This document shows, in pieces, positions 45,979 to 62,362 of a stretch of 64,000 bases of DNA. Both the position numbers and the translations under genes were made by a program. Numbering within the stretch: the first letter of the stretch is position 1; every line of letters starts with the position of its first letter. The stretch spans positions 62,001 to 126,000 of the forward strand of contig JANRJM010000009.1 in assembly GCA_033763975.1 (NCBI GenBank), in the 5' to 3' direction. The stretch is from Planctomycetota bacterium. Lineage in GTDB: Bacteria > Planctomycetota > Phycisphaerae > Phycisphaerales > UBA1924. Below the pieces are notes generated by a model that saw nothing but the letters and a program-made list of their open reading frames with translations, was not told the origin of the DNA and ran no database searches.

Positions 45979-46380
45979 CTAGAGCGACCGCGCGCGCCGG
46001 GCGGCCCAGCGCCCGAGTAATCCCGCGGCGAGCAGTCCCAGCAGCACGCCCGCGACGTTCGCGAGCCAGTCGTCCCACGCGGCGACGCGGGCGAGCGCGG
46101 GGATGAGTTGCAGCGACTCATCGATCGCGGTGTAGACGCCACCCGCGAGCAGGGCGCGCAGAAACCCCCGGCGAGTCTCGGGCGGGCCGAGCCAGGCCGT
46201 GCATCCGAACAGAAACCCCCAGAGCCCGAACGCGCCCAGATGGGCCCAGAGGTCGGCGCGGGGCATGGGGCCCTCGACCTTGACGCCCGGCCAGTGGGTG
46301 AGCAGAAAGATGACGACGGCGTACAGCGGGAAGACGACGCGCGGGACGCGCCGGGCCCAGCCGGCGCCGGCCGAGATCAC
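45979..46380 (-). CDS. VanZ-like membrane protein
   Basis: A 133-residue protein with four transmembrane helices, starting at GTG 46380. The VanZ motifs are seen: LTHWPG at the end of helix 1, DLWAHLGAFGLWGFLF in helix 2, and AIDESLQLIPALARVAAWDDWLANVAGVLLG, with the conserved Asp-Glu, Gln, Arg, Asp and Asn. VanZ proteins give low-level teicoplanin resistance in enterococci. Single-domain forms are common in exopolysaccharide/exosortase loci, where they may handle undecaprenyl-linked carriers. Its start overlaps the stop of parA (GTGA at 46377-46380). Confidence 0.9.
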   Translation of the reverse strand: MISAGAGWARRVPRVVFPLYAVVIFLLTHWPGVKVEGPMPRADLWAHLGAFGLWGFLFGCTAWLGPPETRRGFLRALLAGGVYTAIDESLQLIPALARVAAWDDWLANVAGVLLGLLAAGLLGRWAARRARSL

Positions 46381-47276
46381 GCCCGCCCCTCGCGCACCGC
46401 CGCGGCCGCGGGGACCGACACCACCGGGGCCTCGTCGGGCGTGCGCCGGGCGAGCATGGCGTCCCACTCGCGCAGAAGGGCATCGCCGAGCGCGCCGTAG
46501 TCGGCGGCGCCGGGCGCGTCGGGGGCGTAGTCGAAGATCGTCTTGCCGAAGCTGGGGCACTCGGCAAGCTTGATGTTGCGGCGCACCGGCGGGCGGAGCA
46601 CGCGCGCGAATCGCCACGGCGACTCGGCGCCCCGGGCCTGCTCGAAGAAGCCCTCGAGATCGGCGACGACCTCGCGCGTGTGCGTGCTCGCGGGGTCGTG
46701 CATGCACAGCACGACCCCGGTGACGCGCAGACGCGGGTTCACGCCCCGCGAGACGATGGCGACGGTTTCGAGCAGCTTGCCCACGCCCTGGAGCGCCAGG
46801 AAGTGCGCCTGCATGGGGATGATGACCTCGCGGGCGGCGGCCAGCGCGTTGACCGTGAGCAGGCCCAGCGACGGCGGGCAGTCGATCAGCACGAACTCGT
46901 ACGCACGCCCCAGCGCGTCCAGCGCCCGCTCGAGCCGGCGCTGGCGGTCGGGCGCGCCGGCGAGTTCGGCCTCGACGCCCGCGAGGTTGGTCGTCGCGGG
47001 CAGGAGCGACAGATGGTCGCCCACGCGGCGCACGCAGTCCCGCGGGGCGACGTCCGACGCGCCGAACACGTCGTACGCGGAGTGCTCGAGCGCGTCGGGA
47101 TCGACGCCCACGTGCAGCGTGGCGTGCGCCTGCGGGTCCAGGTCGACCAGCAGCGTCTCGCGACCCCGGCGCGCGATCGCCGCAGCCAGGTTTACGGTCG
47201 TCGTGGTCTTGCCCACGCCGCCCTTCTGGTTCATGAGCGCGATGACGCGCACGGGTCTGCTGGCTCCGTCCGGCAT
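46377..47276 (-). CDS. ParA/Soj family ATPase
   Basis: A 299-residue ATPase starting at ATG 47276. It has the deviant Walker A NQKGGVGKTTTTVNLAAA (signature Lys and Lys23), Walker A' LLVDLDPQAHAT, and Walker B FVLIDCPPSLGLLTVNAL. This is the Soj/ParA type that moves chromosomes, plasmids or protein clusters. No ParB or parS site is adjacent. Its position inside a polysaccharide/exosortase operon and coupling to VanZ suggest it positions the export machinery in the cell rather than DNA. The C-terminal tail is Ala/Val-rich. Confidence 0.88.
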   Translation of the reverse strand: MPDGASRPVRVIALMNQKGGVGKTTTTVNLAAAIARRGRETLLVDLDPQAHATLHVGVDPDALEHSAYDVFGASDVAPRDCVRRVGDHLSLLPATTNLAGVEAELAGAPDRQRRLERALDALGRAYEFVLIDCPPSLGLLTVNALAAAREVIIPMQAHFLALQGVGKLLETVAIVSRGVNPRLRVTGVVLCMHDPASTHTREVVADLEGFFEQARGAESPWRFARVLRPPVRRNIKLAECPSFGKTIFDYAPDAPGAADYGALGDALLREWDAMLARRTPDEAPVVSVPAAAAVREGRA

Positions 47277-47323
47277 GGCGCGAGTATACGAGGGGGGGCG
47301 GGCGGCCTTGCGGGAAACGCCCG

Positions 47324-48754
47324 TCAGGGCGTGCGCGGGGCCACGCCCGCGCCGGGCGGGTGCGGCGCCGGCTGGGGCGCCGAGGTGCTCGCGAGCCCGG
47401 CCGCGACCCGCGTGTCGTGCCGGGCGGCCTCGGCTTCGACCGCGCGGCGGCGTGCGATCTTGATCGCCGTCACCCCGACGTACGCCCCCAGGATCAGCGC
47501 CAGGAGGAAGACGCTGCGGGCGCGGATGAGCGTGACGGCGGCCCCGATGGTCGCGAACGTCGCCGCGATCCCGTACAGCACCATCACCGCACCCTTCACG
47601 CCCAGGGCGCGCTTGAGCTGGTGGTGCAGGTGCTGGTCGTCCGCGGAGGAGATCGACCGCCCCTCCATCTTGCGCCGGACGATCGCGAGGGTGGTGTCGA
47701 TGATGGGGAGCGCGAAGATGATCACGCCCGCGGCGACCAGGCTGGTCTTGCCGGTGTCGCCCATCATCAGGATGATGACGCAGGTCGTGAAGCCCAGCAG
47801 GAGGCTCCCGGCGTCGCCCAGGAAGATCGTCGCCGGGTTGAAGTTGTGCGGGAGGAACCCCAGGCACGCCCCGAGCAGCGCCATGCAGAGGATGAGGCGT
47901 TCGCCGTCGCGCGGGCCGTCGTCGGCCAGGGCGAGCCCCAGCGCCACGACCAGGAGCCCGGCGGCGGAGATGGCGGTCGTTCCGCTCAGCAGCCCGTCGA
48001 GCCCGTCGATGAGGTTGGCCGCGTTGCAGAGCCCGATGACGGCGACCGCGATGATCCCGGTGCCGACCCAGTAGACGACATCGACGGGGATGTGCCCGCC
48101 CCCGAGCATGTCGAAGGGAAGGGGGACCTTCAGGAGCAGCGTCTCGATGCCCAGCGAGTTGGACTCGGTGGGGATGCCGAACGTGCGCGCCACGGGGAGC
48201 AGAATCCCCGCGGCGAGCTGGACGCCCACGCGGTCCATCGCCAGAGCGGCGGCGGCGAAGAGCTGCCCGCCGATCTTGACGCGCGGGGAGATGCCGGTGA
48301 CGTCGTCGATGACCCCGACGAGCAGGATCACGGTCATGCCCAGCATGATCGAGAAGGGCACGGGGAGGTTGAAGTCGACGTTCTTCTCGAACCGGGTCGG
48401 GTGCCACTGGATGAGGTCGGTGAACCGCGTCCCCAGGATGGCGAAGAAGATGCCGCCCATGATGCCGAGGTAGACGGCCACGCCCCCGAGGTACGCGATG
48501 GGCACCTTGTGCACCTTGCGCGCCTCGTTGGGGCGATCGATGATGCCCTGCGAGACGGCGAGGCGGCGCATGAGGGGCGTGGCGATGACGGCCACGAGGA
48601 ACGAGACGACGAGCACGCCGATGTAGCCCTCGAAGATCGCGAGGCGACCCGTGGGCTCGGCGGGCTCGCCGGCCGCGACGTCGGCGGGCAGGCCCGGGAG
48701 GACGTCGGGGAACGTCGGGCGGAGCGCGGCGATGCACGAGAATGGCGAGATCAC
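47324..48754 (-). CDS. WecA/TagO-type undecaprenyl-phosphate glycosyl-1-phosphate transferase
   Basis: A 476-residue inner-membrane enzyme with about eleven helices, starting at GTG 48754 and overlapping the epimerase stop (GTGA). Signatures are RPNEARKVHKVPIAYLGG, VGVIDDVTGISPRVK (catalytic Asp-Asp), NAANLIDGLDGL, and FLGDAGSLLLGF; the last His cluster is SADDQHLHHQL. It transfers a sugar-1-phosphate (GlcNAc in WecA/TagO) from UDP to undecaprenyl phosphate, starting lipid-linked glycan synthesis. MraY makes the corresponding step for peptidoglycan, but the HLHH motif marks the WecA branch. The C-terminal 50 residues are a Pro/Ala tail. Confidence 0.92.
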   Translation of the reverse strand: MISPFSCIAALRPTFPDVLPGLPADVAAGEPAEPTGRLAIFEGYIGVLVVSFLVAVIATPLMRRLAVSQGIIDRPNEARKVHKVPIAYLGGVAVYLGIMGGIFFAILGTRFTDLIQWHPTRFEKNVDFNLPVPFSIMLGMTVILLVGVIDDVTGISPRVKIGGQLFAAAALAMDRVGVQLAAGILLPVARTFGIPTESNSLGIETLLLKVPLPFDMLGGGHIPVDVVYWVGTGIIAVAVIGLCNAANLIDGLDGLLSGTTAISAAGLLVVALGLALADDGPRDGERLILCMALLGACLGFLPHNFNPATIFLGDAGSLLLGFTTCVIILMMGDTGKTSLVAAGVIIFALPIIDTTLAIVRRKMEGRSISSADDQHLHHQLKRALGVKGAVMVLYGIAATFATIGAAVTLIRARSVFLLALILGAYVGVTAIKIARRRAVEAEAARHDTRVAAGLASTSAPQPAPHPPGAGVAPRTP

Positions 48755-49806
48755 GCCGGACGCTCCGTGAGTTTCGCCCCCCCGCCCGACCCCGTTCCGA
48801 GCCACGCCGCCACATCGCGGATCGTGCGTTCGAGCGGGATCGACGGGGCAAAGCGTACGGCGTCGCGGATGCGCGAGAGGTCGGGGCGGCGTTGGCGGAG
48901 GTCCTCGAAGTTCCCCGGGTAGGCCTCGGCGTACGGGATGGTGCGGACGGCGGACGCCGCGCCCAGGGTGCGGACCACCAGGTCGGCCAGCTCGCGGATG
49001 GAAATGGAGCGATCGGACCCGACGTTGAAGACGCGTCCGTGGCAGGCGGGGGTCTCGAGGAGCGCGGGCAGGACGCCGACGACATCGCGGACGTCGCAGA
49101 AGCAGCGTGACTGCGTGCCGTCGCCGTAGACGTCGAGCGGGCGCCCGGCGAGGGCGCGCTCGACGAAGCGGGGCAGCACCATGCCGTAGGAGCCGACCTG
49201 GCGCGGGCCGACGGTGTTGAAGAAGCGCGCGACGACGACGGGCGCGTGGTGCGTGGCGTGGTAGGCGAGGGCGAGGTACTCGTCGATCGCCTTGCTGCAC
49301 GCGTACGACCAGCGGGGCACGGTGGTGGGCCCGTAGACGACGTCGTCCTCCTCGTGGAAGGGGGACTTGGCGGCCTTGCCGTAGACCTCCGACGAGGACG
49401 CGACGAGCGTGGGCACGGGCGCACCCCCCTCGGCGCGCGAGACGGCGAAGCGGAGGAGGGCGGCGGTCTGCTCGACGTTGGTCTCGATCGAGCGGATGGG
49501 ATCGGCGATGACGAGGGAGACGCCCACCGCCGCGGCGAGGTGGTAGATCTGCTCGAAGCGCTCGCCCTTGCCGAAGGCGTTGAGGGCGTCCTTGAGGTCG
49601 GCCTCGACGAAGCGGAGGCGCTCGTGGGCGCCCGGGAGGTTGTCGCGTCGTCCGGTGGAGAGGTTGTCGACGACGGTGACGGTGTCGCCGCGGGCGAGGA
49701 GTCGATCGACGAGGTGCGAGCCGATGAAGCCGGCCCCGCCGCTGACGAGCACGCGCCGGGGCGTGGGGGGAAGGTTCGCCGGGAGGTGGGGCGAGGACGA
49801 AGTCAC
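48751..49806 (-). CDS. NAD-dependent nucleotide-sugar epimerase/dehydratase
   Basis: A 351-residue extended SDR enzyme starting at GTG 49806. The NAD site is VLVSGGAGFIGSHLVDRLLARGD, and the catalytic Tyr-X3-Lys is in WSYACSKAIDEYLA, with Ser in VASSSEVYGKA. The region RFFNTVGPRQVGSYGMVLPRFV, and DVYGDGTQSRCFCDVRDVV match UDP-glucose 4-epimerase/UDP-glucuronate decarboxylase relatives. It should make a UDP-sugar for the polysaccharide. Both ends overlap neighbours by four bases, so it is coupled to the Wzc-like and WecA-like genes. Confidence 0.9.
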   Translation of the reverse strand: MTSSSPHLPANLPPTPRRVLVSGGAGFIGSHLVDRLLARGDTVTVVDNLSTGRRDNLPGAHERLRFVEADLKDALNAFGKGERFEQIYHLAAAVGVSLVIADPIRSIETNVEQTAALLRFAVSRAEGGAPVPTLVASSSEVYGKAAKSPFHEEDDVVYGPTTVPRWSYACSKAIDEYLALAYHATHHAPVVVARFFNTVGPRQVGSYGMVLPRFVERALAGRPLDVYGDGTQSRCFCDVRDVVGVLPALLETPACHGRVFNVGSDRSISIRELADLVVRTLGAASAVRTIPYAEAYPGNFEDLRQRRPDLSRIRDAVRFAPSIPLERTIRDVAAWLGTGSGGGAKLTERPA

Positions 49807-52028
49807 GTGCTGGTGTTCTGGTATTCGTGGGCCGTCTTGATGTTGCGCTTCATGTACCCGCCGCTGGCGGATCGGACGGCGTTGACGAGGATGCCGAGGA
49901 ACTCCGAGCGGGATTCGGAGAGTTCGTTCTTGATGCGGGCGACCATGCCGCGCTTGTCGGCGCGGGCGCGGACGACGAGGATGGTGGCGTCGCAGCGCTG
50001 GGCGAGGGCCATGGCGTCGCCCCCGACGATCGCGGGGGCGACGTCGATGAGGACGAGGTCGTACATGGCGCGGACCTTGGCGAGGATCTCGCCCATGGCG
50101 GCGCTGGAGAGTCGCTCGTAGACGCGCTGGTCCTTGATCCCCGCGGTGAGGAGATCGAGGTTGGGGACGTTGGTGGCCTGGGCGCACTGCGCGAGGTCGC
50201 GCTGCCCGGCGAGGACGTCGGCCAGCCCGGGAGACTCGGGCACGGCGAAGACGCGGTGCAGCCCGGGCCGGCGGAAGTTCGCGTCGATGAGCAGGACCTT
50301 GCGGTCGGCCGCGGCGAAGGCGAGCGCCAGGTTCGCGGCGACGGTCGTCGCGCCCGAGGCGGGCATGCCCGAGAGCACGAGGATGGCGCGGTGGTCGCTG
50401 GCCTGCACGCGCTTCGTGACGCCCGCGCGGAGCTGGCGGAAGCTCTCGGCGACGATCCCGCGGGGTCGATCGCGGAAGGCCGTTTCGGCGGCGCCCTGCC
50501 CGGCGGGGTCTTCGGCCGCGTCGGGCACCCATCCGAGCAGGCGGGCGCGGGGGATGATCGCGATGTCGGAGGGGCTCTTCACGCGCTGGTCGACGATCTC
50601 CAGCAGCAGCACGACGCCGGCGGTGAGGAAGACGAAGAGCGCCACGCCCGCGGGCAGCAGCAGCTTGAGCTGCGGGAACGAGAGCTCCGTGGGCGGGCGC
50701 TCCTGCTCCTGCAGCAGCACGCGGTTGACCGAGAGGGTGCTGGCCTGGGCCTTGAGGGTCGAGAGTTCGTCGGCCTTGCGGGTGCGGTTCTCGGCGATGC
50801 CCCGGATGCGGTTGTCGAGGTCGTTGAGGCGCGACTGGATGCGGGTGAGGTCCTGCAGGCGCTTCTGGGCCGTGGCGCGCTTCTCGAGCAGCGTCTTCTC
50901 CTGGGCCTCGAACTGCGCCACGAGCTTGCGCGTGCGGTCGAGCTCGCCCGCGAACGCCTTGCGCAGCGCTTCGTCGCGCTTGATCTCCAGGCTCTGCTTG
51001 GTCGCGTCGAGCTGGCTCTGCAGAAAGACGTACTGGCGGTGGTCGCGCGAGTACCCCTGCTGCAGCATGCTCTGCTGCTCGGTCTCCAGGAGCTGGATGC
51101 GGCTGCGCAGCTCGTTGAGCTGGGGCTCGCGCTCCACCTCCTCGCGGAGGTCGGCGCCGTAGACGATCCCCCCCGGGTTGTTGATCTCCGCGTCCATCTG
51201 CGCCAGGCGCGTGCGCCCGCTGTCGAGCGTCCGCTGGACCTCGATGATGTCCCCGGTGAGGTCGTTGAGTTCCTGGCGGCTCGTCTCGACGCGGTTGTCG
51301 ATCGTGTCCACCTGGTTCTGCTGAATGAGGTTTTCCTTCTGGATGCTCAGGCCGCCGGCCTCGTCCTCGAGGCTCTTGATGGCGCCGTTCAGCGCGGCGA
51401 TCTTGTCGTCGAGCCCGGCGCGCCCCTGGTCGGCGAGCATCGCCATGTACTTCTGGCGGACCAGGCCGACGATCGCGGTCGCGTCGTGCTTGTTGCGCCA
51501 GCTCATCGAGACCTCGATGAGGTTCGTTCCCGGGATCACGCGCGCCTTGACGTCGTCCTTGAGCTTCTTCAGGGCCTCGGTCGAGTCAAAGGCCGGAGCG
51601 CCCGTGCTGGTGTCGACCTTCTCGAACCTGCTCGACCACTCCGGGGCGTTGGTGCGCAGGGCCGGGTCTTCCGACACGCGGTTGAGCACCTGCGTCGAGG
51701 TGAGCACGCGGACCTGCGTCTGCATGAAGCGGCTCATCTCCTCCTGGCTCTGGGCGCCCACCAGGTCGCTCACTTCCTTCGTGGGGGGCAGGCAGTTGAA
51801 GACGGCCGCGGGCGTCCACAGCGGGTAGACGCGGCGGAGCACCGCGTTCGCGACGTACCCGGTGACCGCACCGGCGATCGCCACGCCCAGCAGCAGGAAC
51901 TTGTACTTGTTCAGCAGACGCAGCGGATCGATCGACGAGCCCATCGCGGGCACGGGCGCTGCGGCGGGGGCGGTCGCGGGGCGAGAGGCGGGCGTCGCAC
52001 CGCCGGCGGACATCGGAACACTCGTCAT
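49803..52028 (-). CDS. Wzc-like polysaccharide co-polymerase/BY-kinase with altered Walker motifs
   Basis: A 741-residue inner-membrane protein. A Wzz domain has helix 1 near residues 43-62 (FLLLGVAIAGAVTGYVANAVL), a long periplasmic coiled coil (about residues 180-440), and helix 2 near residues 470-492. A cytoplasmic BY-kinase domain follows. Walker A reads GMPASGATT (residues 554-562): the invariant Lys of GKST is Ala. Walker A' is LLIDANFRRP, with Asn for the second Asp. Walker B (YDLVLIDVAPAI) is kept. The C-terminus has only two Tyr (GGYMKR, EYQNTST) instead of a Tyr cluster. It probably controls chain length and export with the Wza-like protein but may not phosphorylate. Overlaps the epimerase start. 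Confidence 0.9.
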   Translation of the reverse strand: MTSVPMSAGGATPASRPATAPAAAPVPAMGSSIDPLRLLNKYKFLLLGVAIAGAVTGYVANAVLRRVYPLWTPAAVFNCLPPTKEVSDLVGAQSQEEMSRFMQTQVRVLTSTQVLNRVSEDPALRTNAPEWSSRFEKVDTSTGAPAFDSTEALKKLKDDVKARVIPGTNLIEVSMSWRNKHDATAIVGLVRQKYMAMLADQGRAGLDDKIAALNGAIKSLEDEAGGLSIQKENLIQQNQVDTIDNRVETSRQELNDLTGDIIEVQRTLDSGRTRLAQMDAEINNPGGIVYGADLREEVEREPQLNELRSRIQLLETEQQSMLQQGYSRDHRQYVFLQSQLDATKQSLEIKRDEALRKAFAGELDRTRKLVAQFEAQEKTLLEKRATAQKRLQDLTRIQSRLNDLDNRIRGIAENRTRKADELSTLKAQASTLSVNRVLLQEQERPPTELSFPQLKLLLPAGVALFVFLTAGVVLLLEIVDQRVKSPSDIAIIPRARLLGWVPDAAEDPAGQGAAETAFRDRPRGIVAESFRQLRAGVTKRVQASDHRAILVLSGMPASGATTVAANLALAFAAADRKVLLIDANFRRPGLHRVFAVPESPGLADVLAGQRDLAQCAQATNVPNLDLLTAGIKDQRVYERLSSAAMGEILAKVRAMYDLVLIDVAPAIVGGDAMALAQRCDATILVVRARADKRGMVARIKNELSESRSEFLGILVNAVRSASGGYMKRNIKTAHEYQNTST

Positions 52029-52155
52029 GACGTGACCCTTCCTTCGACCTGCTCACATGGATCGGACGCTCGACACCGGTCGATCGCCGTCCCCCGCCGC
52101 TCGTCCTGCCGCCCCGCCCCGGGCCTCCCCGGCGCGAGATCTCTCTTTCCATTCG

Positions 52156-52197
52156 GTCCGATACCCCGGGGGGTTGAGATCCCTCGGGGCGTCCGAT
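52156..52197 (-). repeat. Hairpin with flanking 7-bp direct repeats in the wzc leader
   Basis: CCCCGGGGG (52164-52172) pairs with CCCTCGGGG (52181-52189), nine pairs with one G-U, around an 8-base loop. GTCCGAT is repeated directly on both sides (52156-52162 and 52191-52197). It lies in the 193-base gap between the TPR gene and the Wzc-like gene. It could be an RNA attenuation element or the footprint of a small insertion. Confidence 0.5.
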
Positions 52198-52221
52198 CAC
52201 CGCCCGTCGCGTTCGGTCGGT

Positions 52222-55200
52222 TTACGGGGTTTCCACCATCTTCTTCACGCGTTCGTACTCCGCGAGGGCATCCGGCTGGATGTTCGCCCGCTCGCTCGCG
52301 AGCACCGCATCGACCTCGGTCAGAATCTTGCGCGACTCGTCCGTCCGGCCCAGCAAGTGCAGACATTCGGCGAGGTGCGCCCCGACTTGAACGCCCTGCT
52401 GGGCCGTGCGGACGTACGAGAGCGCCGAGCGGAACGCCAGTTCGGCGTCCGTCAGTTTGTTCAGGCGCATCCGGATGTAGCCCAGCGTGTCGATGATGTC
52501 GGCGTTGTTGGGCAGGCCGCGCACGGCGGTCTCGGCCAAGGGGAGCGCCTCGGTGAACTTCTCCTCCTTCGCGAGCACGTAGGCCAGGTTGTTGTTCATC
52601 TCGGGGTCGGCGGGGAACTCGCGGAGCGCGATGACCCAGACGTCCTTGGCTTCCTGGACGCGCCCGGCCTGGAAGAGCAGCGAGCCGTTGAGGCGGAGCA
52701 CGTACGCGCGGAGCGCCTGGTTCTTCGAGTCGCGCAGGCGGGCGAGGTCCGCCAGGGCCGCCTCCTGCTGCCCGGGCTGGCGCGATTTCACCTCGCCGGC
52801 GAAGAACGCGAGCCACTCGTTGAGCTGGGGGACGACGCCGTTGCGGATGCTGGCCTCGAGGAACTCGGTGTAGCGCGTGGGGTTGGTGATGAGACGCTGC
52901 ATGTCCTCGTGCCAGACCATCATGATCTGGCCGTTCTCCGGGTTCAGCAGGCGGACGGCGTCGAGCGCGGCGCGCTGCGCCTCGGGCACGCGTCCCTGGG
53001 CGGCCCGGAGCTTGCCCAGGGCCATCATGAAGCCGGGGCTCTTGCCGATGCGCTCGCTGCCGATGCGCCGGAGCACGTCCTCGGCCTTCGCGAGGTTCGG
53101 CGTCGGGGTGTTGATCAGCGAGTCGAGCAGCTTCTGCGAGACCAGGTCGCTGGGGTCCAGGTCGAAGGCCTTCTCGTAGAACTTGGCGGCGATCGCCGGG
53201 CGGTCGGTCTGCGAGAACAGGCTCGCGACGCGCGAGAAGACCAGCGCCTCGCGCGGACGCCCGGCGATGGCGTCCTCCGCCGCCTGCTCGGCCTCCTGGT
53301 CACGCCCCAGGCGCAGCAGGTCGGTGACGAGCGAGACGAGCATCTCGTCGTCCGTCGGGTTGATGCGCATCGCCTCGCGCAGGTCGGCGAGGGCGGCGTC
53401 GGAGTTCTTCATGCGCCCGTGCAGGGCGGCCCGGAGGCGGAACGCCTGCCACATCTGCGGCTGGAGCTGGATCGCCTTGCCGAAGTCCGCCAGCGCGTCG
53501 CGGTGCGTCTCGGGCGTGCGCATGAGCAACTGCCCGCGCTTGACGAAGACCGAGGGCTCGGCCGGGAAGCGCGACACGATCCGGTCCAGCGCCAGGCGGG
53601 CCTCCGCGGGCTTCTCCTGCGCCAGGCGCAGGTCGGCCTCGAGCAGCTGGGCCACCAGGTCCGGGTCCTTGGCGAGCAGCGGGGCGAGCTCGGTCTCCGC
53701 CTCGTCCACGCGCTTCAGGCGGATGAGCGACTCGACCAGGCGCTTGCGGTACGACTGCTCGGGCGAGTCGGCCTTCGCCGCCAGGATGCGCCGCATGACC
53801 TCGACGCCCTGCTCGAGGGCGTTCTGCGCAAAGTACGCCTCGGCCATCGCCTTGTCGGCCTCGAGGGTCGCGGGGTCCTGCACCGCGCGGGCCTTCTCGA
53901 GCACGCCCAGCGCGTTGGGCACGTCCTGGCGGGCGTACAGGAACTGGGCGAAGTCGAGCAGCGCGCGCAGCTTGTCCGGGGCGGCGCTGCGGCTCTCGAC
54001 GTACGCGTCGAACACGCGGAACGTGCCTGCCCGGTCGTTGCGGGCCCAGTGCCACGACGCGTCGAGCGACGCCCCGTCGAGGTCGTCGCCCTGCGCCCGC
54101 ACCTGGTCGATCACGGTCCGGGCCTTTTCGAGTTCGCCCGTGCGGATCTGCAGGCGGGCGAGCTCGATGAGGTTCTCGCGGTCGCGCGGGTTGGCCGCCG
54201 CCAGGCGCTCACGACGCGTCAGCACCATCGGCAGGTTGCCGAACTCGGCCTCGATCCGCAGCCACAGGTCGAGGAACTCCGGGTCGTTCTCGGCGAACTT
54301 GGCCCCGTCGCGCGCGGCGACGAGCGCCTGGTCGCGCCGACCCTGCGTCACGAGCGACGCGACGACGTCGCGGATGGAGCCCGCGTCGTTGGGGCGCAGG
54401 CGCAGGGCGGCCTGATAGGACGCGAGCGCGTCGGCGTGGCGTCCGATGGCGCTCAGCAGCCGCCCGTGCAGGCGGAAGACCTCGGGAGAGGCCCCGCCGG
54501 CGTCGATGACCTGCTGCATGATGTCGGCCCCCGCGCGGGGGTCGCCCCGGGCCGCGAGCATCCGGGCCCGGAACGTGCGTCCCTCGGCGCGGTCGGTGTT
54601 GAGCTTCCCGGCCTTGTCGGCGAGGGCCGACGCCGCGTCCCAGTCCTGGCGCGCGAGCGCGTCGAGGAACTGCAGTTCGAGGACCTGCTCGCCGTCGGGG
54701 TCGAGCTTGACGAGCTCGGCGAGTTCGGCGCGGGCCTCGTCGGCGCGCCCGGCGCGGGTGAACACCGAGTGGCGGGCGAGGCGACGCTGCAGCTCGGGGA
54801 CGTCGGTGCGGCTGGCGATGATCGTGAGCTGCGCGTCGGTGGGGTCTTCGGACGTCAGCGTGGTCTGGATATCCTTGAGCAGCACGCTGTCGGGGTGCTT
54901 CTCCATCGCCGTGCGGACGACCTTCATCGCCCCCTCGCGATCGCCCAGGCCCAGTCGCGTGGTGACGAGCGCCCGCACCAGCAGCGGGTCGTGGTTGTTC
55001 TTCTCCACCTGCTCGGTCAGGAACAGGTTGACCTGCCCGTCGGTCTCGGGCTTGCCCACCCCCTCGCGCTGCATGCGCACGGCGGTCAGGATCGCGCGCT
55101 GCACCGGGCTGCCGGCGTCGTCGGCGCCGCGCCCGGCCCGCGCGAAGTTCAGCCCGTTCTGCGCCAGCTGGTTGTCGGGCTGCAGACGCAGGATGTTCGA

Positions 55201-56829
55201 GAAGGTCGTCTCGGCCTGCGCAAAGTCCTGGAGCTGCAGCGAGAGCTGCCCGTACACGATCCCCGCGCTGATGTTGTTCGGCTGGATGTCCAGCACGCGC
55301 AGCAGACGCTCGCGCGCGGCGCCGGGCTCGTTGGTCTGCAGGGCGGCCTGGGCCCACAGCACCAGCGTGTCCGGGTCGCTGATCGGCGTCTTCTTGTTCA
55401 CCCCCGTCAGCAGCCGGTTGGTGGTCTGCGGGTCGCGGTCCACGAAGGCGAGCCACGCGTCGACCATCATCCGGCGCACCGACTCGGGCGCCTCGCTCTT
55501 CGTGAAGACGTCGTGGAACGCGCGCGCCCGCTTCAGCGACGCCTCGCGCTGCGCCTCGGGGGTCTCCGCGTCCAGGGCCAGGTAGGCCCGCAGCGCCCAG
55601 AGCGCCTGGAGATAGCGGGCGCTGTCCCGGTACCCGAAGAGCGCGCCGCCCTCGGGGCTCACCGGGCGGTTGGGCTGGTCGATGATCTTCTGAAGATACT
55701 GGATCCCCGCGTCGTAGTCCCCGGTCTGGGCCGCCACTTCCGCCTGGCCCGAGAGCGCTTCCAGGTCGTCCGGGCGGGCCTCGAGCGCGCGGGTCAGCAG
55801 TTCCTTCGAGCGGGCGAAGCGGCCCGCGCCGTCCACCACCTGCTCGCTGGCGCGCATCAGGTTCATCAGCTCGGGCGTGAGGTCCTTGGCGTCCAGACGC
55901 CGGCACACCTCCATCGCGCGGTCAAGGCGCCCCCGGGCTTCGTTCGTGAACTGCTCCGCGGCGACGACCGGATCCGGGGGCGTCTGCCCCGCGTCCACCG
56001 CCTCGCGCGATCGGCGCTGGAACGCCCGAACCTCGTTCAGGAAGTCGCGGCGCAGCGTCGCGAGCTGCATGATGGGGTCGTCGGGGTTCGCCGCCTGATA
56101 CGCGGTCACCACGGCGTTGGCCGCCTGCTGCAGCGACGACGCCTCGTCCTCGCGTCCCGCCACGCGGGCCCGGTCGCTCAGTTCCAGCAGCGTCCCCTCG
56201 AGGTTTGAGACCGACTCGAAGTCCGAGGGGTCCACGCGGATGGCGGCCTCGAGGTCCTCTCGCACGCTCGCCCAATCCTCGGGCTTGGCGTCGGGAGACT
56301 GCGCGAGCAGGCGCGCGTTCGCGAGCCCGCGGTACCGCCGCAGCACCTCCCAGTCGCCGGCGGGCTTGCCGGCGTGGAAGGCGAGGAACACGCCCGCCTC
56401 GTCGCGCAGGTAGCTGACGGACTGGCGGTCGAAGGGACCCGCGAAGATGCCCTTCTTGAGCATCTCGAGGTACTCGCGCTGCGCCTCGACTGAGTCGCGC
56501 TGGATGACGGCGAGCTGGCGGGTGGCGCCGCGGTATCCCTGCAGGGCCTCCTGGTACTTCACGGGCGTGTCGGGCGTCTGGGCCGCGATGCTCGAGCGCC
56601 ACTTGCGGAAGTACTCCGCGTTGGTCTTCTCGCGGTCGCAGGCCTTGGAGTAGTACGTGGCGGCCTCGCGGTAGTCCTGCGAGGCCATCGCGCGGTCGCC
56701 CTTCTGCACCAGTTCGCCGGCGGTGTTGTAGAGCACGAGGTACGCCGCCCCGAGCAACCCGCCCAGCACGGCCACCAGCCCGGCGCCGAGAATGAAGACG
56801 AACTTCGTGTTGACCTTTGCTCCGGCCAT
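52222..56829 (-). CDS. Giant membrane-anchored TPR protein of the exosortase locus
   Basis: A 1535-residue protein. One transmembrane helix lies at residues 11-33 (FILGAGLVAVLGGLLGAAYLVLY), the rest is almost entirely TPR helices exposed on one side (probably periplasm): for example GDRAMASQDYREAATYYSKAC, WAQAALQTNEPGAARERLLRVLDIQPNN, and NNLAYVLAKEEKFTEALPLAETAVRGLPNNADIIDTLGYI. I count well over twenty repeat-like units. In exosortase loci a TPR protein (PrsT) is a standard component; this one is about 60% larger than the usual 900 residues. It may scaffold export or polymerisation complexes. Followed by the wzc-like gene after 193 bases and preceded by the EpsI-like gene after 27. Confidence 0.85.
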   Translation of the reverse strand: MAGAKVNTKFVFILGAGLVAVLGGLLGAAYLVLYNTAGELVQKGDRAMASQDYREAATYYSKACDREKTNAEYFRKWRSSIAAQTPDTPVKYQEALQGYRGATRQLAVIQRDSVEAQREYLEMLKKGIFAGPFDRQSVSYLRDEAGVFLAFHAGKPAGDWEVLRRYRGLANARLLAQSPDAKPEDWASVREDLEAAIRVDPSDFESVSNLEGTLLELSDRARVAGREDEASSLQQAANAVVTAYQAANPDDPIMQLATLRRDFLNEVRAFQRRSREAVDAGQTPPDPVVAAEQFTNEARGRLDRAMEVCRRLDAKDLTPELMNLMRASEQVVDGAGRFARSKELLTRALEARPDDLEALSGQAEVAAQTGDYDAGIQYLQKIIDQPNRPVSPEGGALFGYRDSARYLQALWALRAYLALDAETPEAQREASLKRARAFHDVFTKSEAPESVRRMMVDAWLAFVDRDPQTTNRLLTGVNKKTPISDPDTLVLWAQAALQTNEPGAARERLLRVLDIQPNNISAGIVYGQLSLQLQDFAQAETTFSNILRLQPDNQLAQNGLNFARAGRGADDAGSPVQRAILTAVRMQREGVGKPETDGQVNLFLTEQVEKNNHDPLLVRALVTTRLGLGDREGAMKVVRTAMEKHPDSVLLKDIQTTLTSEDPTDAQLTIIASRTDVPELQRRLARHSVFTRAGRADEARAELAELVKLDPDGEQVLELQFLDALARQDWDAASALADKAGKLNTDRAEGRTFRARMLAARGDPRAGADIMQQVIDAGGASPEVFRLHGRLLSAIGRHADALASYQAALRLRPNDAGSIRDVVASLVTQGRRDQALVAARDGAKFAENDPEFLDLWLRIEAEFGNLPMVLTRRERLAAANPRDRENLIELARLQIRTGELEKARTVIDQVRAQGDDLDGASLDASWHWARNDRAGTFRVFDAYVESRSAAPDKLRALLDFAQFLYARQDVPNALGVLEKARAVQDPATLEADKAMAEAYFAQNALEQGVEVMRRILAAKADSPEQSYRKRLVESLIRLKRVDEAETELAPLLAKDPDLVAQLLEADLRLAQEKPAEARLALDRIVSRFPAEPSVFVKRGQLLMRTPETHRDALADFGKAIQLQPQMWQAFRLRAALHGRMKNSDAALADLREAMRINPTDDEMLVSLVTDLLRLGRDQEAEQAAEDAIAGRPREALVFSRVASLFSQTDRPAIAAKFYEKAFDLDPSDLVSQKLLDSLINTPTPNLAKAEDVLRRIGSERIGKSPGFMMALGKLRAAQGRVPEAQRAALDAVRLLNPENGQIMMVWHEDMQRLITNPTRYTEFLEASIRNGVVPQLNEWLAFFAGEVKSRQPGQQEAALADLARLRDSKNQALRAYVLRLNGSLLFQAGRVQEAKDVWVIALREFPADPEMNNNLAYVLAKEEKFTEALPLAETAVRGLPNNADIIDTLGYIRMRLNKLTDAELAFRSALSYVRTAQQGVQVGAHLAECLHLLGRTDESRKILTEVDAVLASERANIQPDALAEYERVKKMVETP

Positions 56830-56856
56830 GAACTCACTCCCCGGCGCGAGCGCGCC

Positions 56857-57708
56857 TCACGATCCGCCCGCGACGCCGTCCGCACGGGGCGGGTAGCGTC
56901 CGGTCTCCACTTCGACCCAGTCGGGCGCGCACCGCGCGATATCCCCGAGCATCTCGCCGATCAGCACGCCCCCGGCCGCGGCCAGGTCTTCACCGCTCTC
57001 GACGTCCTGCGACGTCACCTGTACCTTGAGGTAGAACGCGTAGGTGCTGTTGAGGTCGAAGGCGAGCAGGCGCACTTCCTCGGCGCGGCTCACGGTCCCG
57101 CCGTTGGCGATGAAGAAGTACCCCGCGTAGAACGGGCGCTGCTGCGCGTCGAGGAACTGCATGGTGCGCAGGCGGATCGATCGCGGGTCGCGCGGCAGGC
57201 GCGGGTACTGCCCGTCGCTCGTGCGGACGCGGAAGATGCGCCCCTTCAGGTGCTCGGGCACGTCCGGGTCCTCGCGCCACCACTCCTCGCTGAAGTTCAG
57301 CGGCAGATCGCCCACGATCTCGCCGATCTGCATGCCCCCGCCCACGAAGCACCGGTCCGGCACGTGCGGGACGGTGTCGATCATGCCGGTGTAGTACGCG
57401 GCGTGGAAGGTCAGGCGGATCGGACGCGTCGGGTCCTTGGGCGCCTTCTCGATGTACGTGCGCGTCACGTAGTTGCGGGTGCCGAGCGTCTCGACGACCT
57501 CGGGGGGCTCCAGGTGGTCGCTGCCGATGCGCACCCACGAGGGCGTCTCGGTGGGGAGCGAGGCGAGCAGGCGTCCGCCCTCGGGATAGATGGCCTCTTT
57601 GCGCAGGACGATCTTGAAGTGGCGCTTGACCGAGCCCAGCCCGGCCGCGCCGGCGAGGAGGATCGCCGCCGCCGCCACCACCCCAGCGCTGATGCCCCAG
57701 GACTTCAT
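56857..57708 (-). CDS. Exosortase-associated EpsI-type protein
   Basis: A 283-residue protein with an N-terminal transmembrane helix (AGVVAAAAILLAGAAGLGSV) and a periplasmic EpsI/DUF3485 domain. The segment LTFHAAYYTGMIDTVPHVPDRCFVGGGM contains the family's H-x-P-x-x-C motif. In other exosortase systems this domain is a separate gene or the C-terminus of the exosortase. It is thought to assist sorting or polysaccharide export, though its reaction is not established. Its start overlaps the exosortase stop (ATGA-type overlap at 57705-57708), so the two are made together. Confidence 0.87.
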   Translation of the reverse strand: MKSWGISAGVVAAAAILLAGAAGLGSVKRHFKIVLRKEAIYPEGGRLLASLPTETPSWVRIGSDHLEPPEVVETLGTRNYVTRTYIEKAPKDPTRPIRLTFHAAYYTGMIDTVPHVPDRCFVGGGMQIGEIVGDLPLNFSEEWWREDPDVPEHLKGRIFRVRTSDGQYPRLPRDPRSIRLRTMQFLDAQQRPFYAGYFFIANGGTVSRAEEVRLLAFDLNSTYAFYLKVQVTSQDVESGEDLAAAGGVLIGEMLGDIARCAPDWVEVETGRYPPRADGVAGGS

Positions 57709-58646
57709 GCCCGGGCCTCGCCGTCGTCGGAGACGACCTTCTGCAGGGCCCAGACCACCGCGAGGAAGAGGAACATGCCGGGCACGAGCAGCAGCGTGCC
57801 GATGAGCATGTGGGCGTTGCCCGAGGCCAGGTTCATGTCCCACAGCGAGGCCAGCCCCAGCACCGCGACGCGCACGATGTTCATCAGCAGCGCGACGGGC
57901 ACGGCGAGCAGCAGCAGGGCGATGCGCTGCCACCAGTGGCGGCAGGCGAAGATCGCCACCGCCGCGGCGAGGGCGAGGAACGCGATCACCATCCGCATGC
58001 CCGAGCAGGCCTCGGCGACGTTCAGCGGGATCGTCCGCCCGGCGTACTCGATCTCGAGCACGTTGCCCCGCACGTCGGCGAAGAACCAGTCGCCCGGCGA
58101 CCCGATGAGACGGAGCAGCACGTACGCCCCGTCGGACGCGAGCAACTGCAGCGGGAACGTCACCTTGGTCATGATCTGGGGCGAGATCTTGACCGCGAAG
58201 ACCAGGAACGCGATGGGCAGGAACAGGTGGCGGAACATCGCGGGCCCGCCCGCCAGCAGCGCCACCCCCGCCACGGACAGGATCATCGCGAATCCCTGGA
58301 GCATGTGGTTGGAGATCCCCACGACGAAGAAGAAGTAGCACGCCACGCCCAGCACGAGGGGGAGCGCCCCGGGCCAGAACGTCCGGATCGGCGTCCGCGC
58401 GATCTCGGCCCGGCGCTGCCACAGCATCGCCCCGCTGATGATCGGCACGACGAACGCGTGTCCCCAGTCCTCGATCTCGAGCTTGCTGAACTGGATCTGC
58501 GTCCACAGCCAGTCATGAAAGAGCGCGACGAACGCGATCAGCAGGAGGCCCAGTTGGGTCCAGACACGCCATGGGAGGACCTGCCACGGAGATTGCCCCT
58601 CCGCGCCGACACCCACGACCCGTCCTGACGCGCTCGCACTCGACAC
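57705..58646 (-). CDS. Exosortase
   Basis: A 313-residue inner-membrane cysteine transpeptidase-like enzyme with about eight helices. The three invariant residues of exosortases are in place: Cys214 in NVAEACSGMRMV, Arg259 in MNIVRVAVLG and His279 in GNAHMLIG. Exosortases cut C-terminal sorting signals (PEP-CTERM type) and are believed to attach the protein to a surface glycan or lipid. GTG 58646 was chosen as start; GTG 58616 would also precede the first helix (about residue 30), so the N-terminus is uncertain. Sequence class within the exosortase family cannot be named from sight. The first gene of the locus, a Wza-like protein, ends 100 bases upstream. Confidence 0.9.
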   Translation of the reverse strand: MSSASASGRVVGVGAEGQSPWQVLPWRVWTQLGLLLIAFVALFHDWLWTQIQFSKLEIEDWGHAFVVPIISGAMLWQRRAEIARTPIRTFWPGALPLVLGVACYFFFVVGISNHMLQGFAMILSVAGVALLAGGPAMFRHLFLPIAFLVFAVKISPQIMTKVTFPLQLLASDGAYVLLRLIGSPGDWFFADVRGNVLEIEYAGRTIPLNVAEACSGMRMVIAFLALAAAVAIFACRHWWQRIALLLLAVPVALLMNIVRVAVLGLASLWDMNLASGNAHMLIGTLLLVPGMFLFLAVVWALQKVVSDDGEARA

Positions 58647-58746
58647 GGCACACCCCGTCCACCCACCCGATCCGTCGAAGAACCTCCCTACGACCGGGAT
58701 GCAGCCCGGTTCGCCGCCAACTTCACCGATTCCCGCCCGACCGTCG

Positions 58747-60279
58747 TTACTGCCCGAACTGATTGACGGGCGGCGGGCCCAGCAGGTCGTTGCTGATGTT
58801 GCGGTCCAGCACAAACCCGAACCCGTAGCTCATCCGCAGCCCGTTCCGGAAGATCGCCAGCGGGAGGGCCCAGAACGTCGTTCCCACAACCACGGAGTCG
58901 TTCGGCTTCAGATAGACGTCCGGCTGCGTCCGGTTCGCGATCGCCGCCCCGTCGAGCATGATCGTGGCTTCCCGGTCCTTGCCGACCACCCGCGTGAGAT
59001 CGATGCGCGAGGGGACGGCGATGCCCGCGTAGCCGCCCGCCGCGTGGACGAGGCGTTGCAGCGTCAGCCCGCCCGTGCTGGGCAGCGAGTACGTGCCCGG
59101 ACGCTGGATCTGCCCGCCGACGTAGATCGTGCCGAAAGGCGGGGTGGGCACGCGCACCACGTCGCCCGGGCGGATCACGATGTTCACCGACTGCTTGCCG
59201 GCCTCGAGGTCCTTGATGGGCACGCGGATCACGCGCTGCGTCACGAGGTCCTGCTCGGCCTCGGGCAGCGAATCGCCCGCCGCACCCTGCGGACGCTGGG
59301 TCGCCACCTGCGTCCACTTGCCGTTCAGGAACACCCAGCGGGTCGTGCCCGGGGTCGCATCGTTCTGGTCGGGCGCCGTCCTCGTACGCCCCTCTTCCGG
59401 AAGGTCCACGACGGGTGCGCGCCCGGTGTTCGAAGGCGTCCCGTCGGGCTGGGCGATGAACGCCGCCGGCTGCGCCGAGTGCGCGCCCGGGGAAGGGGGC
59501 GGCGTGGCGGGCGCCGGGGGCGCCAGGTCGTCGATCACCTTCAGCAGGTCTTCCGGTGCCGCACGCGGACGGTCGGGGGCATCGGGCGACGACGCGTCGC
59601 CCGCGCCCTGGGGCGTGAGGCTGACCTCGCGGATCACGTAGACGTAGTCGGCGGTGTTGTCGTACCGCCCGCCGGCGGAGATCGCCTCGAGCAGGCGGTA
59701 GTTGGCGCGGGGGACGAAGTACGGCCCGGGGCGATCCACCGCGCCGATGAGGTTGAACGTCTGCTGGCGCTGGGCGACGGCGACGACCGACGCGAGCGGG
59801 TTGGTCACGAAGCGCTTCATCGCCTCCTGCACCACGCCGACGGTCTCTTCGGTCGTCTTCCCGCCGACGGAGATGCGCCCGAGCTGGGGGAGTTCGATCA
59901 CGCCGCGCGCGTCGACCTCGACCTCGTACACCTCGGCGCGGTTGGCCTCGATCAGGTCGTACAGGGTGATGCGCAGCGCGTCGCCCTGCCCGAGGCGGTA
60001 CTGCGTCGGCAGCGGAACCAGGTCGCCCGGCTGCGGGTCGGAGAACTCGACGATGTCGCCGGCCTCCTCCTCGATCGCCGCGATCCGCGTGAGGATCGGC
60101 ATCGACACGGGCGTGCGTCCCCAGCGCCCGCTCCCGTCCACGCTGGGGTCGAGGAACGACTTTTTCGAACACCCGCCAGCGCCGCACGCGGCCCACACGC
60201 CGCCCGCGGCGAGCAGCATCGCGACCCCGGCCCGGCTCGTGGCCACGCCCCGTCCACGTTCGAATGCTCGATCCTGCAC
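58747..60279 (-). CDS. Polysaccharide export outer-membrane lipoprotein (Wza-like)
   Basis: A 510-residue protein starting at GTG 60279. The N-terminal signal ([19 protein letters not shown]) has candidate lipidation sites Cys32 and Cys37. The poly_export domain starts [49 protein letters not shown]. Two or three SLBB domains follow ([30 protein letters not shown] and [32 protein letters not shown]), separated by a Pro/Ala-rich insert of about 130 residues. Wza-type proteins form the outer-membrane channel and meet the Wzc periplasmic coil. The C-terminal segment [17 protein letters not shown] lacks a clear Wza helix. It is the first gene of the minus-strand run. Confidence 0.9.
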
Positions 60280-61691: not shown

Positions 61692-62362
61692 AACCCGCAC
61701 TCGTGAGCGAGATGGTGAGCGCGCTGGAGGCGAAGGACTTCTCCACCGCCGCGCACACGTGGCGCGTGGTGCTGTACACCCGTGCGCTGGCGGATGACGC
61801 GGGTCTGGACCACGACCAGGTGGACCGCCTGTCGTACGCCGCGGCGTTGCACGACATCGGCAAGATCGACATCCCCGACGAGATCCTCCGCAAGCCCGGC
61901 CCGCTGACGGGCGAGGAGTTCGCGCTCATGCGCACCCACGCCGCACGCGGGCACGAGCGGCTCGTGGCGATGGGCGAGACCGATCCGGTGCTGCTGCAAC
62001 TGGTCCGCCATCATCACGAGCGGATCGACGGGCGGGGGTATCCGGACGGGTTGTCGGGCGACGGGGTTCCGCTCGCAGCGGCGTTCTTCGCGGTGATCGA
62101 CTCGTTCGACGCGATGACGAGCGTGCGCCCGTACCGCTCGGCGGTTGGCCCGGAGGCCGCCCGCCTGGCGGTGCGCGAGCTGCACGAGCACGCCGGGTCG
62201 CGATACCTGGCAGAGGCGGTAAAGCGGTTCTCCCGCCTGCACGACGCCGGGCACCTGACGTGGATCATGGAATATTACAACGACACCTGCGCCGTGCCGG
62301 CGTACGACGACATCGCCCGCCTGCGGGAGATCACGCCCCTGGGGGGCGGGCGCCCGCGCTAG
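61688..62362 (+). CDS. HD-GYP domain phosphohydrolase
   Basis: A 224-residue protein consisting only of an HD-GYP domain, starting at GTG 61688, overlapping the lipA stop (GTGA). Metal-binding and signature residues: His in [12 protein letters not shown], His55-Asp56 in [16 protein letters not shown], His residues in [19 protein letters not shown] (the GYP motif near residue 118) and the following region [19 protein letters not shown] enzymes degrade cyclic di-GMP or related signals; with no receiver domain, input must come from another protein. It may control surface polysaccharide production encoded 1.4 kb away. The 3' end overlaps the convergent EVE gene by four bases. Confidence 0.9.

Follow-up and report, generated by a model that had tools for sequence, protein, structure and literature searches.

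Does a gene row that joins an exosortase to parts of a polysaccharide exporter and to a ParA ATPase encode one system and, if so, what does that system do? The question is raised by a locus of a Planctomycetota bacterium (order Phycisphaerales, UBA1924) belonging to the Phycisphaerae, a class of aquatic bacteria. The stretch analysed, hereafter the window, comprises 64,000 nucleotides (positions 62,001 to 126,000 of contig JANRJM010000009.1, assembly GCA_033763975.1; G000:C9:62001-126000 in our numbering) of a 3.27-Mb genome in 19 contigs that encodes two exosortases. Nine genes follow one another on the minus strand, from 60279 down to 45979: Wza, exosortase, EpsI, a tetratricopeptide repeat (TPR) protein of 1535 amino acids, Wzc, an epimerase, a WecA-type transferase, ParA and VanZ. 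This order and span, given in a preliminary description of the stretch, agree with the coordinates and family matches obtained here, and its reading as an exosortase-linked surface locus of unusual composition is upheld by a conserved gene order and by C-terminal sorting signals. The core is Wza-exosortase-EpsI-giant TPR-Wzc, to which WecA and usually the epimerase are added in most families of the order. We consider it fairly likely that the locus is an ancestral PEP-CTERM sorting and envelope-export module of the Phycisphaerae, working as proposed below and equipped, in Phycisphaerales, with a pseudokinase Wzc.

PEP-CTERM/exosortase (EpsH) systems are presented, in the excerpts of Haft et al. 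2006 (PMC1569441) used here, as sporadically distributed companions of exopolysaccharide (EPS) loci. Within the open-access PubMed Central (PMC) literature we found no paper describing the present locus in Phycisphaerae, and the only one found to contain both Phycisphaer* and PEP-CTERM (PMC12078418) has the latter term, in its accessible portion, confined to the reference list. The genes assigned to the system, with one loop discussed further on, are as follows.

58747..60279, minus strand: Wza-type outer-membrane polysaccharide export protein (OPX), 510 amino acids; PF02563 (Poly_export) 55.2 bits, SLBB 45.3 bits.
57705..58646, minus strand: exosortase, 313 amino acids, start GTG at 58646; PF09721 156.6 bits.
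56857..57708, minus strand: EpsI-like protein, 283 amino acids; DUF3485 25.8 bits (cut-off 26.1), 4-base overlap with the exosortase.
52222..56829, minus strand: giant TPR protein, 1535 amino acids; TIGR02917 (PrsT model) 196.1 bits, cut-off 312.2.
49803..52028, minus strand: Wzc-like polysaccharide co-polymerase with a bacterial tyrosine kinase (BY-kinase)-like domain, 741 amino acids, predicted pseudokinase; TIGR01007 132.2 bits, over cut-off.
50346..50369, minus strand: degenerate Wzc Walker A loop with the sequence GMPASGAT at residues 554-561; Ala560 at the lysine position of solved BY-kinases.
48751..49806, minus strand: NAD-dependent sugar epimerase/dehydratase, 351 amino acids; PF01370 171.5 bits.
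47324..48754, minus strand: WecA/MraY-type polyprenyl-phosphate sugar-phosphate transferase, 476 amino acids; PF00953 110.5 bits.

Four junctions of the row are 4-base overlaps, one fewer than the five announced earlier: exosortase/EpsI (ATGA), Wzc/epimerase (GTGA), epimerase/WecA (GTGA) and ParA/VanZ (GTGA). The others are gaps of 100 bases (Wza-exosortase), 27 (EpsI-TPR), 193 (TPR-Wzc) and 47 (WecA-ParA). The TPR-Wzc gap (52029-52221) measures 14-302 bases in 33 of 35 relatives, the remaining two showing overlaps of 4 and 50 bases. Wza is the first gene of the row, in relatives as well, and diverges from lipA, which lies upstream on the opposite strand.

Is the row more than a chance neighbourhood? 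Exosortase matches were found in all 101 genomes sampled around the window (its own included), 100 of them over the cut-off. Regions were first fetched at one exosortase match per genome, the own-genome regions L033 and L034 being excluded, and 35 of the 38 from same-order relatives display Wza, exosortase, EpsI, TPR, Wzc and WecA in the same order and orientation. Because this set of 35 was defined by matches to Wza, exosortase, EpsI, Wzc and WecA, only the order itself and the presence of the TPR protein are free observations: the TPR protein occurs in 35/35 loci with a length of 1488-1646 amino acids. WecA, though among the set-defining genes, is likewise present in 35/35, and the epimerase in 29/35. 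The three misses (L059, L067 and L068) correspond to another exosortase type, and the same genomes carry the core elsewhere (L073, L074 and L075, the last cut after TPR). Further regions of the order, counted after dropping a dummy region of 100 bases (L076), gave 10 complete cores among 19 informative ones; the rest comprise two cut by ends, six with the other exosortase type and one with neither. In family f5 (families are numbered f1, f2 and so on), the row as detected stops at Wzc, WecA not being found after it.

In other orders of the class, the five-gene row Wza-exosortase-EpsI-TPR-Wzc is complete in 20/25 regions. The five incomplete ones consist of a fused exosortase-EpsI alone (L188), two regions without a detected exosortase (L190, and L193 at a contig start), one cut before Wza by the contig start (L191) and one in which no Wza was found (L202). 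Wza-exosortase-TPR-Wzc is still present in two class genomes in which EpsI is undetectable (G300 and G311). Four regions from other classes of the phylum (L178-L181) have a different gene order, and EpsI relatives occur in 116/120 class genomes versus 19/197 genomes drawn from the whole phylum. The row thus exceeds chance, its order recurring across Phycisphaerales and its five-gene core across the class. The locus was also met in records titled Leptolyngbya sp. PLA1 (L096) and Cyanobacteria bacterium CYA (L163), which are probably mislabelled metagenome-assembled genomes of family f1. Regions L211 and L212 were gene-called only, and L034 was scanned for tails only.

On a tree of the exosortases, each of the families f1, f2, f4, f5 and f6 comes out as a single group (support 99, 100, 96, 63 and 92, respectively), the family labels need seven changes, which is the minimum possible, and the second exosortase type stands apart in a fully supported group of its own; the tree, of a quick kind, carries a warning of long branches, and L202 was left out for its length. 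The class-wide row and this grouping by family make the locus look ancestral in the class and vertically inherited.

An exosortase needs substrates, and the genome provides candidates: the PEP-CTERM profile PF07589 gives 35 matches at E ≤ 10, of which six pass the Pfam cut-off; at E ≤ 10 matches also arise in 13 of 14 control genomes, no control passing the cut-off. Inspection of the 30 best among the 35 matches showed each to be C-terminal, starting 21-37 residues before the stop, and 23 aligned tails give the consensus VPAPGAxALLGLGGLxAARRRR. A profile built from these tails detects 42 in the window's genome and one or more in 99/101 genomes, counts for which the distance to the C-terminal end was not checked individually. 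An unconserved gene order and a proteome devoid of sortable C-termini had been named in the preliminary description as fatal to its reading; both objections fail because the order is conserved and the tails exist. Pfam searches on 10 of the 30 tail proteins returned DUF4394 in one, PEP-CTERM in one and a weak P-domain in one, and a signal-peptide rule, crude and without control, was satisfied by 26/30.

Which of the two exosortase types would serve these tails can be approached by counting. In f1 genomes of 90% or greater completeness, the median is 41 tails (range 19-62) with one exosortase match (n = 25) and 30.5 (range 14-50) with two or more (n = 22); in the single-exosortase f1 genomes fetched, the exosortase lies in this locus in 14/14. 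The other exosortase as sole tail sortase is rejected for f1, since genomes with a single exosortase carry at least as many tails. As far as seen, two genomes lack the core, and tails are missing from both: G312 shows no match for exosortase, EpsI or tail, and G072, without an EpsI of this type, encodes two distant exosortases, neither of which sits in the core.

The exosortase of the window carries C214, R259 and H279, which are invariant in 16/16 aligned sequences and which we take to be the catalytic residues. It passes the generic model TIGR02602 (114.8, cut-off 105.55) and no cut-off of a named Xrt class in NCBIfam, the best three being XrtA (126.7 of 208), XrtD (143.8 of 400) and XrtW (133.8 of 425); the second exosortase of the genome likewise passes no named class. 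EpsI, adjacent to the exosortase in the window, is fused to it in 37/132 loci, and the window protein and its relatives share the motif YYTGxIDxVPHxPxRC (alignment A4 leaves out L141 and L157, of unusual EpsI length, and L120). An AlphaFold model of EpsI (pLDDT 94.6) displays one N-terminal membrane-type helix and a compact alpha/beta domain. The EpsI sequence also gives a weak match (E 0.0013) to the C-terminal part of the XrtD profile. Foldseek returned no match in the Protein Data Bank (PDB) at E ≤ 0.001, and VIA-align gave SciW as best (Z 5.7), followed by LpqN, MTC28, PsbP and Tsi3 at Z 4-5, chains that we presume to be Mog1/PsbP-like, no claim resting on it. We rejected the fold as a functional clue, these Z values lying within the tool's stated noise. 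As to the TPR protein, which scores below the PrsT cut-off, its N-terminus holds a membrane-anchor-like helix and no lipobox, with no Cys in the first 60 residues, both judged by eye.

The second exosortase locus of the genome lies on contig C17 (L033, G000:C17:270501-290500) and contains glycosyltransferases, an FrhB-like protein, a UDP-sugar dehydrogenase and its own EpsI-, Wzc- and TPR-like genes. It resembles the window locus in combining an exosortase with EpsI-like, Wzc-like and long TPR proteins, and differs by its gene order, by a GKT Walker A motif and by the glycosyltransferases and UDP-sugar dehydrogenase inside. Other families of the order show a similar arrangement of its last genes. 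The preliminary description mentioned neither this locus nor the EpsI-exosortase fusion nor the degenerate kinase domain of Wzc.

Can Wzc still act as a kinase? Its BY-kinase-like domain matches solved kinases of this kind (VpsO, 4e-26; full-length Wzc, 8e-22), the match to Wzc in the PDB covering residues 302-726, and it reads GAT where solved BY-kinases read GK[ST], Ala560 being aligned to the lysine of VpsO and CapA1/CapB1. Wzc was found in 46/48 loci of the order, 22/22 of the other-order loci given (25 fetched), 70/80 named loci and 8/10 loci of the second exosortase type (type 2); the 46 order and 70 named loci overlap in genomes and were not merged. The Walker A lysine is absent in 46/46 order loci, replaced by Ala, Ser, Thr, Val, Gly or Cys, and in 69/70 named loci, the last one having a gap. 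The other orders of the class show Lys in 14/22, Arg in 5/22 and neither in 3/22, and Lys is kept in the type-2 paralogues (8/8) and in other classes (4/4). The Lys/Arg state requires three changes on the exosortase tree. Outside the order, loss of the lysine was seen in L174, L184 and L191 (families f7 and f82). Walker A' reads D-A-N in the window and D-x-N in this locus type both inside and outside the order, as a rule also where the Walker A lysine is kept, and D-x-D in type-2 paralogues; the commonest forms of Walker B keep their Asp. Within the last 40 residues, order Wzc proteins have two Tyr in 25/46 cases, three to five in 13/46 and none or one in 8/46; other-order proteins have three to five in 17/22.

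Because the Walker A lysine is absent in the order, the Wzc of Phycisphaerales is predicted to be a BY pseudokinase, and we infer a loss of its kinase activity; losing a needed residue suggests that the machine runs without that switch. The missing lysine, like the parts of the locus, their order, their inheritance and the tails, can be read from the sequences themselves. By sequence, the protein fits the BY pseudokinase PCP-2 kind, a polysaccharide co-polymerase (PCP) with a BY-kinase-like domain lacking catalytic residues. In the excerpts of PMC12004946 used here, such pseudokinases, joined to or working with a PCP, are thought to be scaffolds (EcpK/EpsV, HfsB/HfsA), and fused variants are cited from Cuthbertson et al. 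The present protein stands apart by its fusion, by its place in an exosortase locus and by its occurrence in each locus of the order that was examined; EcpK is without all Walker motifs, whereas here the loop Gly and Ser/Thr are kept. What is new is the order-wide case inside an exosortase locus, BY pseudokinases as such being already known since EcpK, HfsB and fused variants were described there.

We propose the following working of the module. Sec-exported proteins with tails made of VPAPG, a membrane helix and RRRR would be held in the inner membrane. The exosortase and EpsI, acting as one unit, would cut at the P-x-P motif and transfer the cleaved protein; as acceptor, a WecA-primed glycan, either lipid-linked or at the surface, is probable. 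The membrane-anchored giant TPR protein would collect substrates and enzymes in the periplasm. The Wzc/Wza pair would form the route across the envelope, and the Wzc oligomer of Phycisphaerales, being a predicted BY pseudokinase, would serve as a scaffold that does not cycle by tyrosine phosphorylation. Glycosyltransferases and Wzy would be supplied by unlinked loci. We infer the cut and transfer, the acceptor, the role of the TPR protein and the passenger of Wza.

Several observations weigh against this proposal. In G087, a genome 78% complete, the other exosortase type was the only one seen, yet eight tails match at E ≤ 0.05, so that the other exosortase may serve tails too, unless the core locus sits in the portion that is lacking. 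Tails are few in some genomes that do carry the core locus (three in G075). The family assignment of the window EpsI rests on a DUF3485 score 0.3 bits under the Pfam cut-off, and the protein reaches no NCBIfam EpsI model at E ≤ 0.01. The Gly preceding the missing lysine and the Ser/Thr following it are retained in 46/46 order loci, which would fit residual nucleotide binding. The change of the lysine is not tied to one clade, since it is lost (3/22) or replaced by Arg (5/22) outside the order too. Finally, the GK-bearing type-2 paralogues have no more than one Tyr in their last 40 residues (8/8), so they are not textbook kinases either.

Could the row instead be an ordinary Wzx/Wzy-dependent exopolysaccharide locus with unlinked glycosyltransferases and polymerase, in which the exosortase goes along for the ride and Wzc regulates chain length? 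Wza, Wzc, WecA and the sugar epimerase are familiar parts of such loci, and in 6/6 genomes searched the Wzy_C genes are on contigs other than that of the locus or at a great distance from it; of the two Wzy_C neighbourhoods scanned on contig C13 of the window's genome, one has glycosyltransferases beside it. Among the glycosyltransferases near a Wzy_C gene there, a hyaluronidase-family match was seen (L210:10874-12781, G000:C13; PF01630, GH56, 81.7 bits). The row itself holds no Wzy and no glycosyltransferase other than the WecA-type one, as the preliminary description had said and as is also true of the relatives' rows, where core genes are nowhere more than 623 bases apart in the 35 order loci; the Wzy, Wzx and glycosyltransferases that would make up a complete Wzx/Wzy-dependent locus were not found in it. 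The exopolysaccharide explanation accounts poorly for the exosortase and EpsI standing between Wza and Wzc in all 20 complete other-order rows, for the lysine missing from Wzc in all 46 order loci, and for the separate second locus of this genome, in which an exosortase and a Wzc-like protein stand together with glycosyltransferases and a UDP-sugar dehydrogenase. We regard it as unlikely, if not negligibly so.

That the Wzc of the order is still an active ATPase or kinase, managing without the Walker A lysine, is quite improbable. The loop residues kept in all 46 loci, the Asp of the commonest Walker B forms and the Lys-to-Arg replacement in 5/22 loci of other orders speak for such activity; against it stand the small and varied replacing residues, a tail that tends to be poor in Tyr (two in the last 40 residues in 25/46) and a Walker A' reading D-x-N and not D-x-D, but this last feature is shared by the other orders that keep Lys.

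The end of the row is formed by two genes and a promoter-like box.

46377..47276, minus strand: ParA ATPase (AAA_31), 299 amino acids, probably a neighbour outside the system; family match.
47283..47288, minus strand: TATACT box 6 bases before the ParA ATG, putative leaderless-type promoter; similar box in relatives.
45979..46380, minus strand: VanZ-like membrane protein, 133 amino acids, paired with ParA, probably outside the system; PF04892 32.8 bits.

ParA follows WecA in 13/18 f1 loci (of the 35) and VanZ is present in 11/18, with the 4-base ParA-VanZ overlap in 9/11. The 17 loci from other families, including L069, which breaks off at WecA, showed neither gene in the row. In three genomes of families f2, f6 and f8 (G061, G098 and G214), the best ParA match, at 50-54% identity, lies away from the locus; the f2 locus (L205, G061) has a VanZ-like frame (E 3e-5) after ParA, and none was seen in L206 or L207, from the other two genomes. 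A box resembling TATACT precedes the ParA ATG by 5-7 bases in 11/13 f1 loci, for the other two of which no true ParA start codon was picked, and in L205. The sole ParB_N match of the genome (G000:C13:407349-407639) is unlinked to the locus and has no ParA within the 3.3-kb locus around it, nor does the window ParA have a ParB beside it. A second ParA, 45% identical, is encoded on C4 (C4:48798); either it or the window ParA (46377-47276) may be a distant partner of the C13 ParB_N protein. ParA-VanZ is thus probably not part of the system but a neighbour with its own promoter, because it has its own -10-like box, is absent from the locus outside f1 as seen and has a likely orthologue elsewhere in other families; the inclusion of ParA in the earlier reading does not stand, and ParA as a system member was rejected on these grounds together with the unlinked ParB_N. 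One nine-gene system with ParA and VanZ taking part, for instance by placing the exporter in the cell, is very improbable, the f1 adjacency and overlap that favour it being outweighed by the other families, the distant best matches, the conserved box and a ParB_N protein whose partner the window ParA may simply be.

Leaderless-type promoters (TANNNT ending 5-9 bases before the start codon) precede 9/44 called genes of the window versus 14/1305 ATG triplets on both strands; examples are starts 45967, 25796 and 16509 (minus) and 29573 and 60489 (plus), and ParA (47276) has one, its start being uncalled there. A promoter scan gave no sigma-70-type site (0.4 in shuffles) and 10 terminator-like sites versus 4.1 expected, which were not used. 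Downstream of the row lie a citrate-transporter-like gene and MurJ.

How does the module relate to known systems? The E. coli-type Wza-Wzc capsule exporter shares Wza and Wzc homologues and a WecA-type starter; the present locus differs by having neither Wzy nor Wzb and a Wzc with a broken Walker A, the downstream MurJ being the only flippase-like gene nearby. The PEP-CTERM/EpsH system, as far as the excerpts of PMC1569441 go, is alike in having an exosortase with EpsI adjacent or fused, numerous C-terminal tails, a TPR protein and EPS genes nearby. PrsK and PrsR are not found in the present locus, whose only glycosyltransferase is of the WecA type; the PrsT described in that paper carries a lipoprotein signal, and here the TPR protein is membrane-anchored and of about 1500 amino acids. 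We put forward only tentatively, as a doubtful extension of the proposal, that in this class a polysaccharide exporter once paced by phosphorylation, the Wza/Wzc pair, has become a route across the envelope that needs no phosphorylation and carries exosortase-processed surface proteins or protein-glycan conjugates, exosortase-EpsI and the giant TPR protein serving as its loading dock.

Against the sporadic distribution reported in PMC1569441, the PEP-CTERM system is, in the class sampled here, a near-universal and apparently vertically inherited feature tied to a defined five-gene core. The core Wzc of Phycisphaerales is a natural catalytic-loop variant kept over deep time; the Wzc-like paralogue of the second exosortase locus, found here in the same genome, retains the lysine. 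Two questions thereby become accessible to testing: by what route sorted proteins pass the outer membrane, and whether a fused Wzc-type co-polymerase works without kinase activity. If true, a Wza/Wzc protein route would answer how PEP-CTERM proteins leave the cell.

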